Assembly (NCBI GenBank): GCA_021780225.1
Contig: JAJXZF010000003.1
Coordinates: 1-64,000, forward strand
Direction: 5' to 3'
DNA from: Deltaproteobacteria bacterium
GTDB lineage: Bacteria > Desulfobacterota > Binatia > Binatales > Binataceae
Length of the DNA stretch: 64,000 nt
The position numbers and the translations under genes are program-made. Shown in pieces: positions 19,130 to 26,030 of the stretch; the stretch's first letter is position 1; every line of letters starts with the position of its first letter. Under the pieces are notes generated by a model. The model was not told the origin of the DNA. It made no database searches and saw only the letters and a list, made by a program, of their open reading frames with translations.

Positions 19130-19360
19130 TCAGGCCGGCTTAATCCTGGACAAGACCTCTTCGACCTCGCCGTCAACCGGAAAGCGCCCGGTTTGCGCTT
19201 TCGAATAGATCAGCGATCCATCTACGATTACGTCGAACTGACCGGTGCGGCCCGGTTTGATTTCAGCCTGCTGATTGAACCGCTTGGCGATGCTGGCGGC
19301 CAGACCGGCCGCACGGGATTTATACCCTCAGGGCACGCAATACAGAATCTCGATCTTCAT
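19130..19360 (-). CDS. SelW/Rdx-like selenoprotein with in-frame TGA (Sec)
   Basis: 76-aa thioredoxin-fold Rdx (SelT/SelW/SelH) family protein. It starts MKIEILYCVP; codon 11 is TGA (19328-19330), then GYKSRAAGLAASIAKRF, a QFDVIVDGSLIYSK strand pair, GRFPVDGEVEEVL, and a normal TGA stop. The C-x-x-U motif is where family members have CxxU or CxxC. The frame is open across the whole family length on both sides of the TGA. A hairpin with a GGUCU loop follows the TGA (see 19296-19312). Ordinary gene calling would miss or truncate it. It lies downstream of the arginine decarboxylase gene on the same strand (61 nt). Redox role in the cytoplasm, partner unknown. Expression needs SelA/B/C/D elsewhere in the genome. 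Confidence 0.8.
19296..19312 (-). promoter_or_regulatory. bacterial SECIS-like stem-loop for Sec insertion
   Basis: On the minus strand GCGGCC, loop GGTCT, GGCCGC: a perfect 6-bp GC stem. The loop starts 21 nt after the TGA codon, within the spacing known for bacterial SECIS elements, and the GGUCU loop matches the loop of the E. coli fdhF element, which is bound by SelB. It is inside the coding sequence (codons ~17-22). Confidence 0.7.
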
Positions 19361-19421
19361 GGTTTCAGCCTAAAGCCGATGATTGCGCCGCGCAACCGTC
19401 AAGCGCGGCCGCCGGCCGGCG

Positions 19422-19985
19422 TCACTTCCCGTTCGGCAAATCGACGAACACCGCGGCCGCCACGACCGACGTCCACAACCCGTCGCGATCTCCGATCGCC
19501 GATTGCGTGACGTTGCGCGTCGAAACGATTTTGTCGGAGACGCGCCAGATGTCCTTGCGCTCGTCGTAGCTGGCGTTGGGATCGAAGTCCACGCCGAGAA
19601 TCGTCGCCAGCATCATCGCCGCCAGATCTTCCGCGTAATCGCCCGCCTTCTGTTCGGTTTCGCCGAAGCTGTGATGTTCCGACAGATAGCCGTAGTGGCG
19701 CGGATCGGCGGGAATCGCCACCCCGACCGACGCGGCGCACAACCGATGCGGTTCGTCGGTCGCGTTGTCGCTCATCACGGCGAATACGATTTGCCCCGGC
19801 TTCAGATAGCGCAGGCCCTCTTGCGGCGTAATCAGCTTGCAATTCGGCGGAAAAATCGACTTCACGCGCACCAGGTTGAATTCCGCGATTTGCGCGGACC
19901 GCAGCGACAGTTCGAACGCGGTCAGCTTCTCGCGATGCCGGCCGACGCCCTTGGTCAGAAACACCCCTTTCGGAAAAGGACCCAT
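19422..19985 (-). CDS. pdaD: pyruvoyl-dependent arginine decarboxylase
   Basis: 187 aa. It makes agmatine from arginine, a first step to polyamines. Family features: FLTKGVGRHREKLTAFELSL, NLVRVKSIFPPNCKLI (the Ser in VKSI is the predicted self-cleavage residue that becomes the pyruvoyl group), LKPGQIVFAVM, RLCAASVGVAIP, HYGYLSEHHS and GDYAEDLAAMMLAT. The start ATG has GGAGAG upstream. The selenoprotein gene follows 61 nt downstream on the same strand. Confidence 0.9.
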   Translation of the reverse strand: MGPFPKGVFLTKGVGRHREKLTAFELSLRSAQIAEFNLVRVKSIFPPNCKLITPQEGLRYLKPGQIVFAVMSDNATDEPHRLCAASVGVAIPADPRHYGYLSEHHSFGETEQKAGDYAEDLAAMMLATILGVDFDPNASYDERKDIWRVSDKIVSTRNVTQSAIGDRDGLWTSVVAAAVFVDLPNGK

Positions 19986-20110
19986 CTATCTCGTCTCTCC
20001 GTACGCGCGCGGCTGCCCGCAAACGCGATGATGCGCCTTCATTATCCTGACGGCGGCCAGCAAGAAAAGTCCGTGTGACGACAAACTTGGTTCAACGCGT
20101 TACAAATTCG

Positions 20111-21784
20111 TTAAACTTCGTTGTTTGGATGATACTCGCCGAACACGCGCCGCATCGCATCCGCGATTTCTCCCAGCGTCGCGTAGGAGCGCACCGCGTC
20201 GATAATCGGCGGCATCAGATTGCCGCCTTCGCGCGCCGTCCGCTCCACCCGGTCGAGCGCGGCGGCCGCCGCCGGCTGCGATCGTTCCGCGCGCACCCGC
20301 GCGATTCGCGCGCACTGCTTCTCCTCGATCGCCGGGTTTACCTTCAGAATATCTCCCGGAGGCGCGTCGCCCGTGGTGAATTCGTTCACGCCCACGATGA
20401 TCCGCGCCTTGGTCTCGATCTCGCGCTGATAGATGAATGCGGCGTTGTGAATCTCGCGCTGCTGGAAGCCGCGTTCGATTCCCGCTACCGCCCCGCCAAG
20501 ATCGTCGATCGTGTTCAGATATTCGTTGGCCTTCTTTTCGAGTTCGGCCGTGAGCGTCTCGAGGTAATACGATCCGCCCAGCGGATCGATGGTGTCGGTA
20601 ACGTCGGATTCGTGCGCGATCACCTGTTGCGTGCGCAGCGCCAGCAGCACGGAATTTTCGGTCGGCAGCGCCAGCGCCTCGTCCTTGGAATTCGTATGCA
20701 GCGATTGCGCTCCGCCGAGCACGGCGGCGAGCGCCTGCAGCGTCACCCGCACGACGTTGTTTTCCACCTGCTGCGCGGTCAGCGTCGAGCCCGCGGTCTG
20801 CGCGTGAAACCGCATCATCATCGATCGCTCGTCCTTCGCGCCGAAGCGTTCTTTCATGATTCGCGCCCACATCCGGCGCGCCGCGCGGTACTTGGCGATT
20901 TCCTCGAAGAAATTGTTGTGGACGTTGAAAAAGAACGACAACCGGCTCGCGAAGTCGTCCACCTTGAGTCCCGCCTTCACCGCCGCTTCGACGTACGCGA
21001 TTCCGTCGGCCAGCGTGAACGCCAGTTCCTGCGCGGCGGTCGATCCCGCTTCGCGAATATGGTAGCCGGAAATCGAAATCGTGTTCCAGTTCGGAACTTC
21101 CTTGCTCGCGAACTCGAAAATATCCGTGATTATCCGCATCGAACCGCGCGGCGGGTAGATGTAAGTGCCGCGCGCGATATATTCCTTCAGGACGTCGTTC
21201 TGAATCGTGCCGTTGACCTTGTCCCACGCCACGCCGCGTTTTTCAGCGACGGCGAGGTAGAGCGCCAGCAGCGTCGCCGCGGTCGCGTTGATCGTCATCG
21301 AGGTCGAAATCTTGTCGAGCGGCAGCTCCGCCAGCAGCGTTTCCATGTCGGCCAGCGACGCGATCGACACGCCGACCCGCCCGACTTCGCCGCGCGCCAG
21401 CGGATGGTCCGGGTCGCGGCCCATCTGCGTCGGCAAATCGAACGCGACCGAAAGTCCGGTCTGCCCGTTGGCGAACAGGTAACGGTAGCGCCGGTTCGAT
21501 TCTTCCGCGTCGCCGAAGCCCGCGTACTGGCGCATCGTCCACAGCCGCCCGCGATACATCGTCGGCTGCACGCCGCGGGTGAACGGATATTCGCCCGGAA
21601 AGCCCAGATCGCCCAGGAAATCGAAACCGTTCAGATCCTCGGGATCGTACTCGCGTTTGATCTCGATTCCGGAGCTCGTCGCGAATTTTTCGCGCCGCTC
21701 GCCGCCGCGTTTGAGCGCCGGGGCGACGCGCTTGTCGTCCCAATTCTTCCGAGCTTCAGCCAGCGTGCGTTCCTGCTCCGCCAT
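20111..21784 (-). CDS. methylmalonyl-CoA mutase, large-subunit catalytic domain only
   Basis: 557 aa TIM-barrel domain of an adenosylcobalamin-dependent acyl-CoA mutase. MRQYAGF (Tyr89 of the P. shermanii enzyme), SMRIITDIF (Arg207) and ISGYH (His244) keep the residues that give methylmalonyl-CoA specificity; isobutyryl-CoA mutases have Phe and Gln at the first two. The protein ends ([10 protein letters not shown]) before any C-terminal cobalamin-binding domain, so a separate small B12-binding subunit must be encoded elsewhere. It is the last gene of the four-gene carboxylase operon and starts 17 nt after the BCCP gene. It makes succinyl-CoA from methylmalonyl-CoA. Confidence 0.92.
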
Positions 21785-21801: not shown

Positions 21802-22311
21802 CTATTCGACTACGACCAGCAGTTCGCCCTTTTCGACGGTCTGGCCCGGTTTCACTTTGATTTCGGCGATCTTGCCGGCCTTCGGCGACTTCAATTCATT
21901 CTCCATCTTCATCGCCTCGACCACCACCAATCCCTGATGCTGCGCGACGTCGTCGCCCACCGCGACGAGCACGTTCACCACCCGTCCCGGCATCATCGCC
22001 TTCAATTCCGCGCGGCCGCCGGCGTGCTCGCGCGCCGCGGGGCCGTGATGGCGCTTGCGGGCGGCGTCAACCAGCCCGACCCGGGTCGCGCCCCGTCGCG
22101 ACGCCACCACCACTTCGTCGCCGTCGCGCGCGACGTCGAAATCGAACGAGCGCCGCTCCAGCAGAATCGAGTACGACGACGGCCCGACCTGCCGCACGTC
22201 CACTTCGAAATCCCGCCCGCCAATTCCAAGGCGCAGCGTATGCGCCGCAAGTTCTTTGACTTCAATCTGATGTTCGGCGTCGCCCAGCGTCGCCACGAAT
22301 CGCGTCGGCAT
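21802..22311 (-). CDS. biotin carboxyl carrier protein of acyl-CoA carboxylase
   Basis: 169 aa. The C-terminal biotinyl domain has the biotinylation site in [12 protein letters not shown] (Lys), followed by the usual hairpin [12 protein letters not shown] and [13 protein letters not shown]. The N-terminal ~80 residues form a beta-rich region. In many acyl-CoA carboxylases this domain is fused to the biotin carboxylase; here it is a separate gene 24 nt downstream of it. Confidence 0.93.
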
Positions 22312-22335
22312 CGTGCCGGTTTCTCCTTGTCTGTT

Positions 22336-23862
22336 CTAGCGCCGCAGCATGTCGAGGCGGCCGAGTATCTTCCACGGCGAAACCACGCCGCCTGCCGCCG
22401 GCGCCGCGGCCGTCGGCTGCGCCGCCGCCGCGCCGTTATGGCCGTTGCGATACGCCATCACCGCCGCCGCCAGCAGCGCCGCCAGATGCGCGTCGTCGCC
22501 GCCTTGGCCCGCGGCTTCCGGCCGATATTCCTGATTGATGAAATTGGTGTCGAAATCTCCGGCGATAAACCGCGGGTGCTCGACGATCCAGCGATGGAAA
22601 TCAAGGTTCGTGGTCAGCGCTCCGGTCACCACGAACTCCCCCAGCGCGCGCCGCATCCGCCCGATCGCCTCATTGCGATCGCGGCCCCACGCGACCAGTT
22701 TCGCGATCATCGGATCGTAAAAGAGCGACACCTCCGCGCCTTCGTAAACGCCCGCGTCAACCCGAACGCCGGGACCGTCCGGCAGCCGCATCGTTTCAAT
22801 CTTGCCCGGCGCTGGCACGAAACCCGCCGCCGGATCTTCGGCGTAAATCCGGCACTCCAACGCCCATCCGCGCTGCGCCAAATCTTTCTGCTTAAACGGC
22901 AGCGGCATCCCCGCCGCGACCTCGATTTGCGCCTTCACCAGATCGATTCCTGTGACCATCTCGGTCACCGGATGCTCAACCTGGATGCGCGTGTTCATCT
23001 CGAGGAAGTAAAAATTCCGATCGGCGTCGGCGAGAAATTCGATCGTGCCCGCGCCGACGTAGCCGACCGCGCGCGCCGCCCGCACCGCCACCTCGCCCAT
23101 CTCGCGGCGCATCGCCGGCGTGATAAACGGCGACGGCGATTCTTCTACCACTTTCTGATGGCGCCGCTGGATCGAGCATTCGCGCTCGAACAGATGCACC
23201 GTTTCGCCGTGCTGGTCGGCGAAGACCTGCACTTCGATATGGCGCGGCCGGTTCAGATATTTTTCGACATAGAAACGGCCGTCGCCGAACGACGATTTGG
23301 CTTCGCTCGCGACCGTGCGCACCGCCGACGCGAGGTCCGCGTCGTTCTCGATCATCCGCATTCCCTTGCCGCCGCCGCCCGCGGCCGCTTTGAGCATGAT
23401 CGGAAAGCCGACCTTCTTCGCGACGGCGCGGACCTCGTCTTCGGTTTCCAGCGTGTCGGGCGAGCCGGGGGTCACCGGCACGCCGGCCGCGGACATCAGC
23501 TTGCGCGCCTCCACCTTGTCGCCCATTTTCTCGATCGCCTCGGGCGGTGGTCCGATGAAGGTGATTCCGGCCGCCGCGACGGCGCGCGCGAATCCGGCGT
23601 TTTCGGAGAAGAAGCCGTAGCCCGGATGGATCGCGTCGGCGCCGGTGGCGCGGGCGGCGTCGAGAATGCGCTCGATATTCAAATAGCTTTCGCGCGCGGG
23701 CGGCGGCCCGACCGCGACCGCGAAGTCGGCCTCGCGCACATGCAGCGCCGCCCGATCCGCCTCCGAGTACACCGCGACCGACTCGATTCCCAGATCGCGG
23801 CAGGCGCGAATCACGCGCACCGCGATCTCGCCGCGGTTCGCAATCAAAATTCTCTTGAACAT
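22336..23862 (-). CDS. acyl-CoA (propionyl/acetyl) carboxylase, biotin carboxylase subunit
   Basis: 508 aa ATP-grasp enzyme. FKRILIANRGEIAVRV at the N-terminus, the Gly-rich ATP loop AAAGGGGKGMR (about residues 157-167), RDCS-type motif (FERECSIQRRHQKVVEE), EMNTRIQVEHPVTE and the C-terminal biotin carboxylase domain are present. After the standard ~450 residues there is an Ala-rich linker (QPTAAAPAAGG) and a short tail, perhaps a remnant of fusion to a carrier domain. Carboxylates biotin on the BCCP encoded next. Confidence 0.94.
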   Translation of the reverse strand: MFKRILIANRGEIAVRVIRACRDLGIESVAVYSEADRAALHVREADFAVAVGPPPARESYLNIERILDAARATGADAIHPGYGFFSENAGFARAVAAAGITFIGPPPEAIEKMGDKVEARKLMSAAGVPVTPGSPDTLETEDEVRAVAKKVGFPIMLKAAAGGGGKGMRMIENDADLASAVRTVASEAKSSFGDGRFYVEKYLNRPRHIEVQVFADQHGETVHLFERECSIQRRHQKVVEESPSPFITPAMRREMGEVAVRAARAVGYVGAGTIEFLADADRNFYFLEMNTRIQVEHPVTEMVTGIDLVKAQIEVAAGMPLPFKQKDLAQRGWALECRIYAEDPAAGFVPAPGKIETMRLPDGPGVRVDAGVYEGAEVSLFYDPMIAKLVAWGRDRNEAIGRMRRALGEFVVTGALTTNLDFHRWIVEHPRFIAGDFDTNFINQEYRPEAAGQGGDDAHLAALLAAAVMAYRNGHNGAAAAQPTAAAPAAGGVVSPWKILGRLDMLRR

Positions 23863-23910
23863 CAGTTCTGGTCCGATTTTCCTCGCATTGCGCGGCGCCC
23901 TCGCGCCGTC

Positions 23911-25461
23911 TTAGAGCGGAATATTGCCGTGCTTGCGCGGCGGATTCTTCTCGCGCTTGTTTTCCAGCGCCTTCAGCGACGCGATCAGCCGCGGCCGCGT
24001 GTCGCGCGGCATAATTACCTCGTCGATATAGCCCAGTTCGGCGGCCTTGAACGGATTGGCGAAGGTCTGTCGGTATTCCTCGACCAGCCGCGCCTTTTCG
24101 GCGACCGGATCGGCGGCTTTCTCGATTTGTCCGCGGAAGATGATGTTGACCGCGCCGTCCGGCCCCATCACGGCGATTTCCGAGGTCGGCCACGCGAAAT
24201 TGAAATCGCCGCGGATATGCTTGGACGACATGACGTCGTAGGCGCCGCCATAGGCCTTGCGCGTGATTACCGTCACCTTCGGCACGGTCGCCTCGCAAAA
24301 GGCGTAGAGCAGCTTGGCGCCGTGCCGGATAATTCCGCCGAACTCCTGCGCCGTGCCCGGCAAAAATCCCGGCACGTCCACGAAGGTCACCAGCGGAATA
24401 TTGAAGCAGTCGCAGAAGCGCACGAAACGCGCGCCCTTGACCGACGCGTCGATATCGAGGCATCCCGCCAGATAACCCGGCTGGTTCGCGACCACCCCCA
24501 CCGAGTAGCCGCCCAGATGCGCGAAACCGATCAGCATGTTCTGCGCCCAGTCGGGCTGAACCTCGAAGAAATGCCCGTCGTCGACGACCCGCGTGATCAC
24601 CTCGCGCATATCGTATGGCCGGTTCGGATTTTCCGGCACGATCGAATCGAGCGCGTCTTCGCGCCGGCCCGGATCGTCGTCGGTCGGTTTGAACGGCGGG
24701 TCTTCGACGTTGTTCGACGGCATGTACGAGAGCAGTTCGCGAATCGTCAGCAGCGCCGCTTCGTCGTCGGGCGCCTCCAGATGGCACACGCCGGATTTCA
24801 TCGAATGGGTGTCGGCGCCGCCGAGCGCCTGCATCGTCACCTCTTCATGGGTGGTCGCCTTGATTACGTCCGGACCCGTGATGAACATATAGGAGGTATC
24901 GCGCACCATCACGATGAAATCGGTCATCGCCGGCGAATAGACCGCGCCGCCCGCGCACGGTCCCATGATCGCCGAAATTTGCGGCACCACTCCCGACGAA
25001 AGCACGTTGCGCAGGAAAATATCGGCGTAACCGGCGAGCGAAACCACGCCCTCCTGGATGCGCGCGCCGCCCGAGTCGTTGATCCCGATCACCGGGCATC
25101 CCGATTTCGTCGCAAGATCCATCACCTTGCATACCTTCTCGGCGAATGCGCCCGAAAGGCTGCCGCCAAAGACGGTGAAGTCCTGCGAAAAGACGCATAC
25201 CTGCCGGCCGTCGATCGTGCCGTAGCCGGTCACCACGCCGTCGCCCGGAATCTTCTTTTCGCCCATCCCGAAATCGTCGCATCGATGCGTCTTGAACTTG
25301 TCGAGTTCGACGAACGAACCGGGATCGAGCAGAAAATCGATTCTTTCGCGCGCGGTCAGGCGCCCGCCTTCGCGCTGGCGCTTGAGCCGCTCGGCGCCGC
25401 CGCCGCTTTCGGCCTGGCGCGTCAATTCCTGGATTCGTTCGATGTTTTCTTTTAATCCCAT
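23911..25461 (-). CDS. acyl-CoA carboxylase carboxyltransferase (propionyl-CoA carboxylase beta type)
   Basis: 516 aa. Two crotonase-like halves: the N-half with [41 protein letters not shown] and [12 protein letters not shown]; the C-half with [37 protein letters not shown] and [12 protein letters not shown]. This is the PccB/AccD5 type that transfers carboxyl from biotin to propionyl-CoA (and often acetyl- or butyryl-CoA). First gene of the operon carboxyltransferase - biotin carboxylase - BCCP - mutase. Confidence 0.95.
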
Positions 25462-25592: not shown

Positions 25593-25991
25593 ATGAGCAT
25601 GAACGATACGCTGATACGGATTTTGGTCGCCTGCGGATGGGCCGCCGCGGGCGTCAGCGGCTTCGGTACGGCGCTGTTCGTGGCCGGCAGTCCGGTGGCC
25701 GGCGGTCAAGCCGCGGCCTACGCCACGCCGGCGCTGTTTATCGCGCTCGCCTTCGGAATTTATCGCAACAGCCGGCTTTGCGCGCTGGCCGCGCTGATTA
25801 TTTTTTCCGCGATGCGCATCGAGTTTTTTCGGATTGCGCAAGCCGTCCAGCAATCGCACGGCGGCGCGGTAACGATCGGTTTCTGGATTTCGGCGATCGT
25901 CTTCGGCGCCCTTTATCTCTTGGGCGTGGTCGGAACCTTCGCATGGCACGCGCGCCATCCCGAAGCCTCGGCTCCGACGTTTGAGTCCTAG
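25593..25991 (+). CDS. small integral membrane protein
   Basis: 132 aa with about four transmembrane helices (residues ~6-30, 35-55, 56-75 and 93-115) separated by short polar loops (GIYRNSR, RIAQAVQQSHGG), ending in a short hydrophilic tail. The ATG at 25593 gives a natural MSMND start; longer upstream starts read into GC-rich non-membrane sequence. Its stop codon TAG is part of the CTAG that begins a repeat remnant (25988-25991). Function unknown. Confidence 0.6.
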   Translation: MSMNDTLIRILVACGWAAAGVSGFGTALFVAGSPVAGGQAAAYATPALFIALAFGIYRNSRLCALAALIIFSAMRIEFFRIAQAVQQSHGGAVTIGFWISAIVFGALYLLGVVGTFAWHARHPEASAPTFES

Positions 25992-26017
25992 TCGCGGTGT
26001 TCCGCAAATAAGTTTGC
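25987..26017. repeat. solo terminal repeat of the MITE-like family
   Basis: CTAGTCGCGGTGTTCCGCAAATAAGTTTGC-like end resembling the left end of the ~207-bp element (CTAGTGTGGCGTCCCGCAA...), but followed by unrelated sequence. It lies about 60 bp upstream of a full copy and supplies the TAG stop of the preceding gene. Confidence 0.55.
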
Positions 26018-26030
26018 TATTGTCGACGAA

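Follow-up and report, generated by a model that had tools for sequence, protein, structure and literature searches.

A selenocysteine-containing SelW gene (selW; Rdx family) was identified on the minus strand of a 64,000-nucleotide stretch of DNA from the uncultured Binatota lineage (hereafter the window); the gene is almost certainly genuine, with its in-frame UGA decoded as selenocysteine (Sec). A preliminary description of this DNA had read a 76-codon minus-strand frame with the pattern C-V-P-x-G-Y-K as a SelW/Rdx gene and its TGA as Sec, and had proposed a genome search for selA, selB, selC and selD and an alignment with Cys homologues. The Rdx profile matches the frame across the TGA, all four sel genes are present, and the Cys homologues carry Cys exactly at the TGA position and lack the downstream hairpin; together with the conservation of the TGA and the selection acting on the hairpin, these results uphold the Sec reading. 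The same description had called the gene hidden, which is right in that plain ORF calling splits it, so that plain gene callers can miss selW, and overstated in that NCBIfam already holds SelT/SelW/SelH models. Feature coordinates are collected in Table 1.

Table 1. Features of the selW locus, in window positions
Feature	Position	Strand	Evidence
selW (SelW/Rdx), 76 codons read through the in-frame TGA	19130..19360	minus	PF10262, TIGR02174; codon position of the TGA shared by every same-family homologue
TGA codon 11, read as selenocysteine (CVPU)	19328..19330	minus	TGA conserved; Cys in L076-L078
SECIS hairpin, GCGGCC - GGUCU - GGCCGC	19296..19312	minus	Covariation and synonymous-codon constraint; absent from Cys homologues; fits the bSECIS model
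Pyruvoyl-dependent arginine decarboxylase (pvlArgDC), just upstream of selW; context, not part of the selenoprotein	19422..19985	minus	PF01862, E=2.5e-57

The selW gene and conservation of its TGA

The selW frame runs from an ATG at 19360-19358 to a terminal TGA at 19132-19130 and, with U at codon 11, encodes a product of 76 residues (MKIEILYCVPUGYKSRAAGLAASIAKRFNQQAEIKPGRTGQFDVIVDGSLIYSKAQTGRFPVDGEVEEVLSRIKPA). When read across the TGA (as Cys/Sec), it matched the Pfam Rdx profile PF10262 with E=2.2e-18 (66.6 bits, cut-off 22.6; profile positions 1-70 of 74), and is therefore not a chance frame. It also matched the NCBIfam subfamily-level model TIGR02174 (SelT/SelW/SelH) at 58.2 bits, above the cut-off of 34.2, and scored 72.4 bits against NF041051, a narrower equivalog of the Campylobacter type, below the cut-off of 88 for that model. 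The redox motif lies near the N-terminus (C8-V-P-U11), and CxxU was found in every locus read. Among solved structures the top sequence match was C17orf37 (2ljk); SelW-related proteins of bacteria (e.g. 2fa8 and 2p0g) came next, and by its similarity to these members SelW may have a thioredoxin-like fold. The gene is present as one copy in its own assembly (3.80 Mb, 118 contigs, 96.9% complete), and no homologue was found in the plasmid collection.

Homologues were sought in 57 genomes (its own and those of relatives). selW was present in 32 of the 35 same-family genomes, with one in-frame TGA in each (32/32), and the TGA occupies the identical CxxU codon in every locus read, including homologues from records titled Myxococcota, Planctomycetota, Acidobacteriota, Actinomycetota, Chloroflexota and Gammaproteobacteria. 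A fairly close homologue (L054, 64% identity) belongs to a record with the title Candidatus Binatus soli, on which basis the host is assigned to the Binatota lineage. A Cys codon (TGT/TGC) takes the place of the TGA in three genomes of the same class (G040, G042 and G053; Cys-form loci L076-L078). The region 3' of the TGA showed dN/dS of 0.10-0.25 relative to the nearest relatives, indicating purifying selection.

The hairpin downstream of the TGA

The hairpin consists of a 5' arm at 19312-19307, a loop at 19306-19302 and a 3' arm at 19301-19296. The preliminary description was correct about the 6-bp GC stem and the GGUCU loop and had placed the start of the stem 21 nt after the TGA; it is the loop that starts there, the stem beginning after 15 intervening bases. 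Its proposal that the hairpin is SECIS-like agrees with the published bSECIS constraints and with the compensatory changes described below. These constraints, taken from a review (PMC13188914), were applied by hand: a loop of 3-9 nt with G in its first two positions, a stem of 4-16 bp, a spacing of 16-37 nt and an MFE no higher than -7.5. The hairpin lies within all of them (loop 5 nt; stem 6 bp; GG; spacing 21 nt; MFE of the isolated hairpin -11.6 kcal/mol).

Covariation was assessed in a gap-free alignment of 39 distinct homologues, giving 234 possible pairs, of which 227 are kept, and the full six-pair stem is present in 32 of the 39. Compensatory changes were observed at pair 3 (G-C, A-U, C-G, G-U and U-G) and at pair 6 (C-G and G-C). 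In the loop, G at position 2 and U at positions 3 and 5 never vary, and homologues from other phyla retain pairing with different stem bases. To control for the bias of the encoded Ala-Ala-Ser/Gly-Leu-Ala-Ala peptide, 2000 sets of codons were drawn for the unchanged peptide, with codon use taken from elsewhere in the same genes. These synonymous reshufflings, which ignore the kinship of the sequences, gave a mean of 179 pairs, a maximum of 193 and 13 or fewer full stems, against the observed 227 and 32. A serine in the loop is always encoded by AGT (33/33), a codon used for 3 of the 96 serines in the rest of these stretches. Cys homologues retain just 1-3 of the six stem pairs.

Folding of the hairpin region as a single sequence was unexceptional (z=-0.43); the significance of the hairpin derives from the comparison across homologues, not from single-sequence folding. 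Rfam searches returned no SECIS match, at the gathering threshold over the window or at E<=5 over the gene. An Rfam match to HgcF (14.5 bits versus a threshold of 70) was dismissed as chance.

Inferred Sec decoding and alternative readings

The same assembly encodes the complete decoding machinery: selA (567 bits), selB (370 bits), selD (387 bits) and tRNA-Sec (selC) with anticodon UCA, the last detected by both the Rfam model and ARAGORN in three genes (G000:C18:23065-23160 and 25926-26021, L082; G000:C70:11401-11493, L083). selB and selD lie ~3 kb apart on contig C17. We considered and rejected the possibility that the three tRNA genes are odd suppressor tRNAs, all being tRNA-Sec with anticodon UCA. 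Two of the three are nearly identical and 2.8 kb apart, and several relatives carry extra partial tRNA-Sec copies (the first ~42 or last ~34-64 bases), which look like scars of integration at selC.

Across the genomes, selW, selA and selC are all missing from one same-family member (G031), and G042, whose SelW is of the Cys form, has no selA, as expected for a Sec-dependent gene. Exceptions were G015, with selW and selC and no selA match, and G008 and G016, with selA and without selW; incomplete assemblies or gene loss can explain these.

Two further genes of the genome were inspected as selenoproteins. selD has its own in-frame TGA at the catalytic site (L084:8949-8951, G000:C17; AAG-U-AGKLGP), making it a second selenoprotein candidate. 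The main formate dehydrogenase alpha subunit (L116, G000:C9:79172-81199), the sole one above the cut-off, carries Cys and not Sec despite the Sec-decoding capacity of the genome.

Several other readings of the locus were weighed. A Cys-form SelW could merely look interrupted, through a sequencing error or through a nonsense mutation leading to a pseudogene, and the window does come from a fragmented assembly of 118 contigs. The identical TGA in 32/32 same-family genomes and in other phyla speaks against this reading, since a TGA in every same-family homologue is no sequencing error, as does the purifying selection 3' of the TGA; judged by these sequence comparisons, error and pseudogene are excluded, with a negligible residual probability. 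It is highly improbable that UGA is read through as a residue other than Sec, with a suppressor tRNA supplying Cys or Trp: the genome has the full selA/B/C/D set with an ordinary tRNA-Sec, the hairpin is selected specifically where TGA is present and is absent with Cys codons, and ordinary genes here, selW included along with the upstream decarboxylase gene, also terminate at TGA, so the genetic code is not reassigned.

The hairpin itself might be a by-product of the conserved peptide and GC-rich codons and not a SECIS element, a proposal with which the single-sequence z-score would agree. The reshufflings with the peptide fixed never approached the observed pairing, and the exclusive use of AGT at the loop serine and the compensatory changes at several pairs point the same way, leaving the by-product explanation with practically no chance of being correct. 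As judged from the homologues, the hairpin is under selection, its pairing being maintained well above the level that the protein sequence would impose.

Because complete machinery occurs with a conserved cis-element, we infer Sec decoding at this codon. SelB with Sec-tRNA(Sec)UCA would bind the hairpin just 3' of the UGA, and Sec would be placed at residue 11 of the 76-aa product, completing its CVPU redox pair. The most likely role of SelW is that of a small thiol/selenol oxidoreductase, as its family membership and CxxU motif suggest. It is probably glutathione-linked like other SelW proteins; SelW has been found to interact with glutathione (PMC1088965).

Relation to known systems and gene neighbourhood

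Few bacterial selenoproteins are as common as Sec-containing SelW, and both the family and the decoding system are well known. SelW-like proteins were the most abundant selenoprotein family in a Sargasso Sea survey (PMC1088965) and, with SelD, the most widespread in GOS (PMC2398784); Geobacter sulfurreducens, Desulfotalea and others have been listed with SelW-like selenoproteins (PMC1794560). The window gene resembles bacterial SelW-like selenoproteins (PF10262, TIGR02174) in family, length, CxxU and UGA-encoded Sec with a hairpin just downstream, and differs from them only in its host lineage (Binatota) and its conserved mcm-pvlArgDC neighbourhood. Its hairpin shares with the E. coli fdhF-type bSECIS a small apical loop starting with G, a short GC stem and the 21-nt spacing, and nothing essential differs; the loop is GGUCU in the window and AGUCU in most relatives. 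The Rdx proteins of the Cys-form loci L076-L078, from same-class genomes, can be aligned to the window protein, with CxxC at the CxxU position, and differ in having a Cys codon for the TGA and no hairpin. The window selW leaves the understanding of Sec decoding unchanged; its contribution is to Binatota, which gains Sec decoding as a trait and a lineage-wide Sec-SelW. The main Binatota genome paper (PMC8262859) makes no mention of selenium, and a non-exhaustive literature search for selenocysteine with Binatota returned only a reference-list match; within that check, the trait seems to be so far unreported.

In 25 of 29 same-family loci, selW is preceded on its strand by pvlArgDC (gaps ~16-330 bp), and methylmalonyl-CoA mutase (mcm; PF01642 in the window) lies upstream in 24 of the 29, including two (L040 and L044) in which the decarboxylase is missing and mcm directly precedes selW. 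The order mcm-pvlArgDC-selW on one strand (19130-21784, minus, in the window; loci L021-L049) was not seen in outgroup homologues. The three genes may form an operon; a pattern scan for promoters and terminators around selW found none. There is a slim chance that the Binatota SelW, encoded by the final gene of this cluster, operates in a fixed metabolic setting, assisting either methylmalonyl-CoA metabolism or the pyruvoyl arginine decarboxylase as a dedicated redox partner or repair factor; if true, a defined physiological role could be assigned to bacterial SelW. The conserved neighbourhood is a lead on bacterial SelW function. Farther upstream on the minus strand, ORFs at 21802-25461 of the window resemble, by reading only, a propionyl-CoA carboxylase set.
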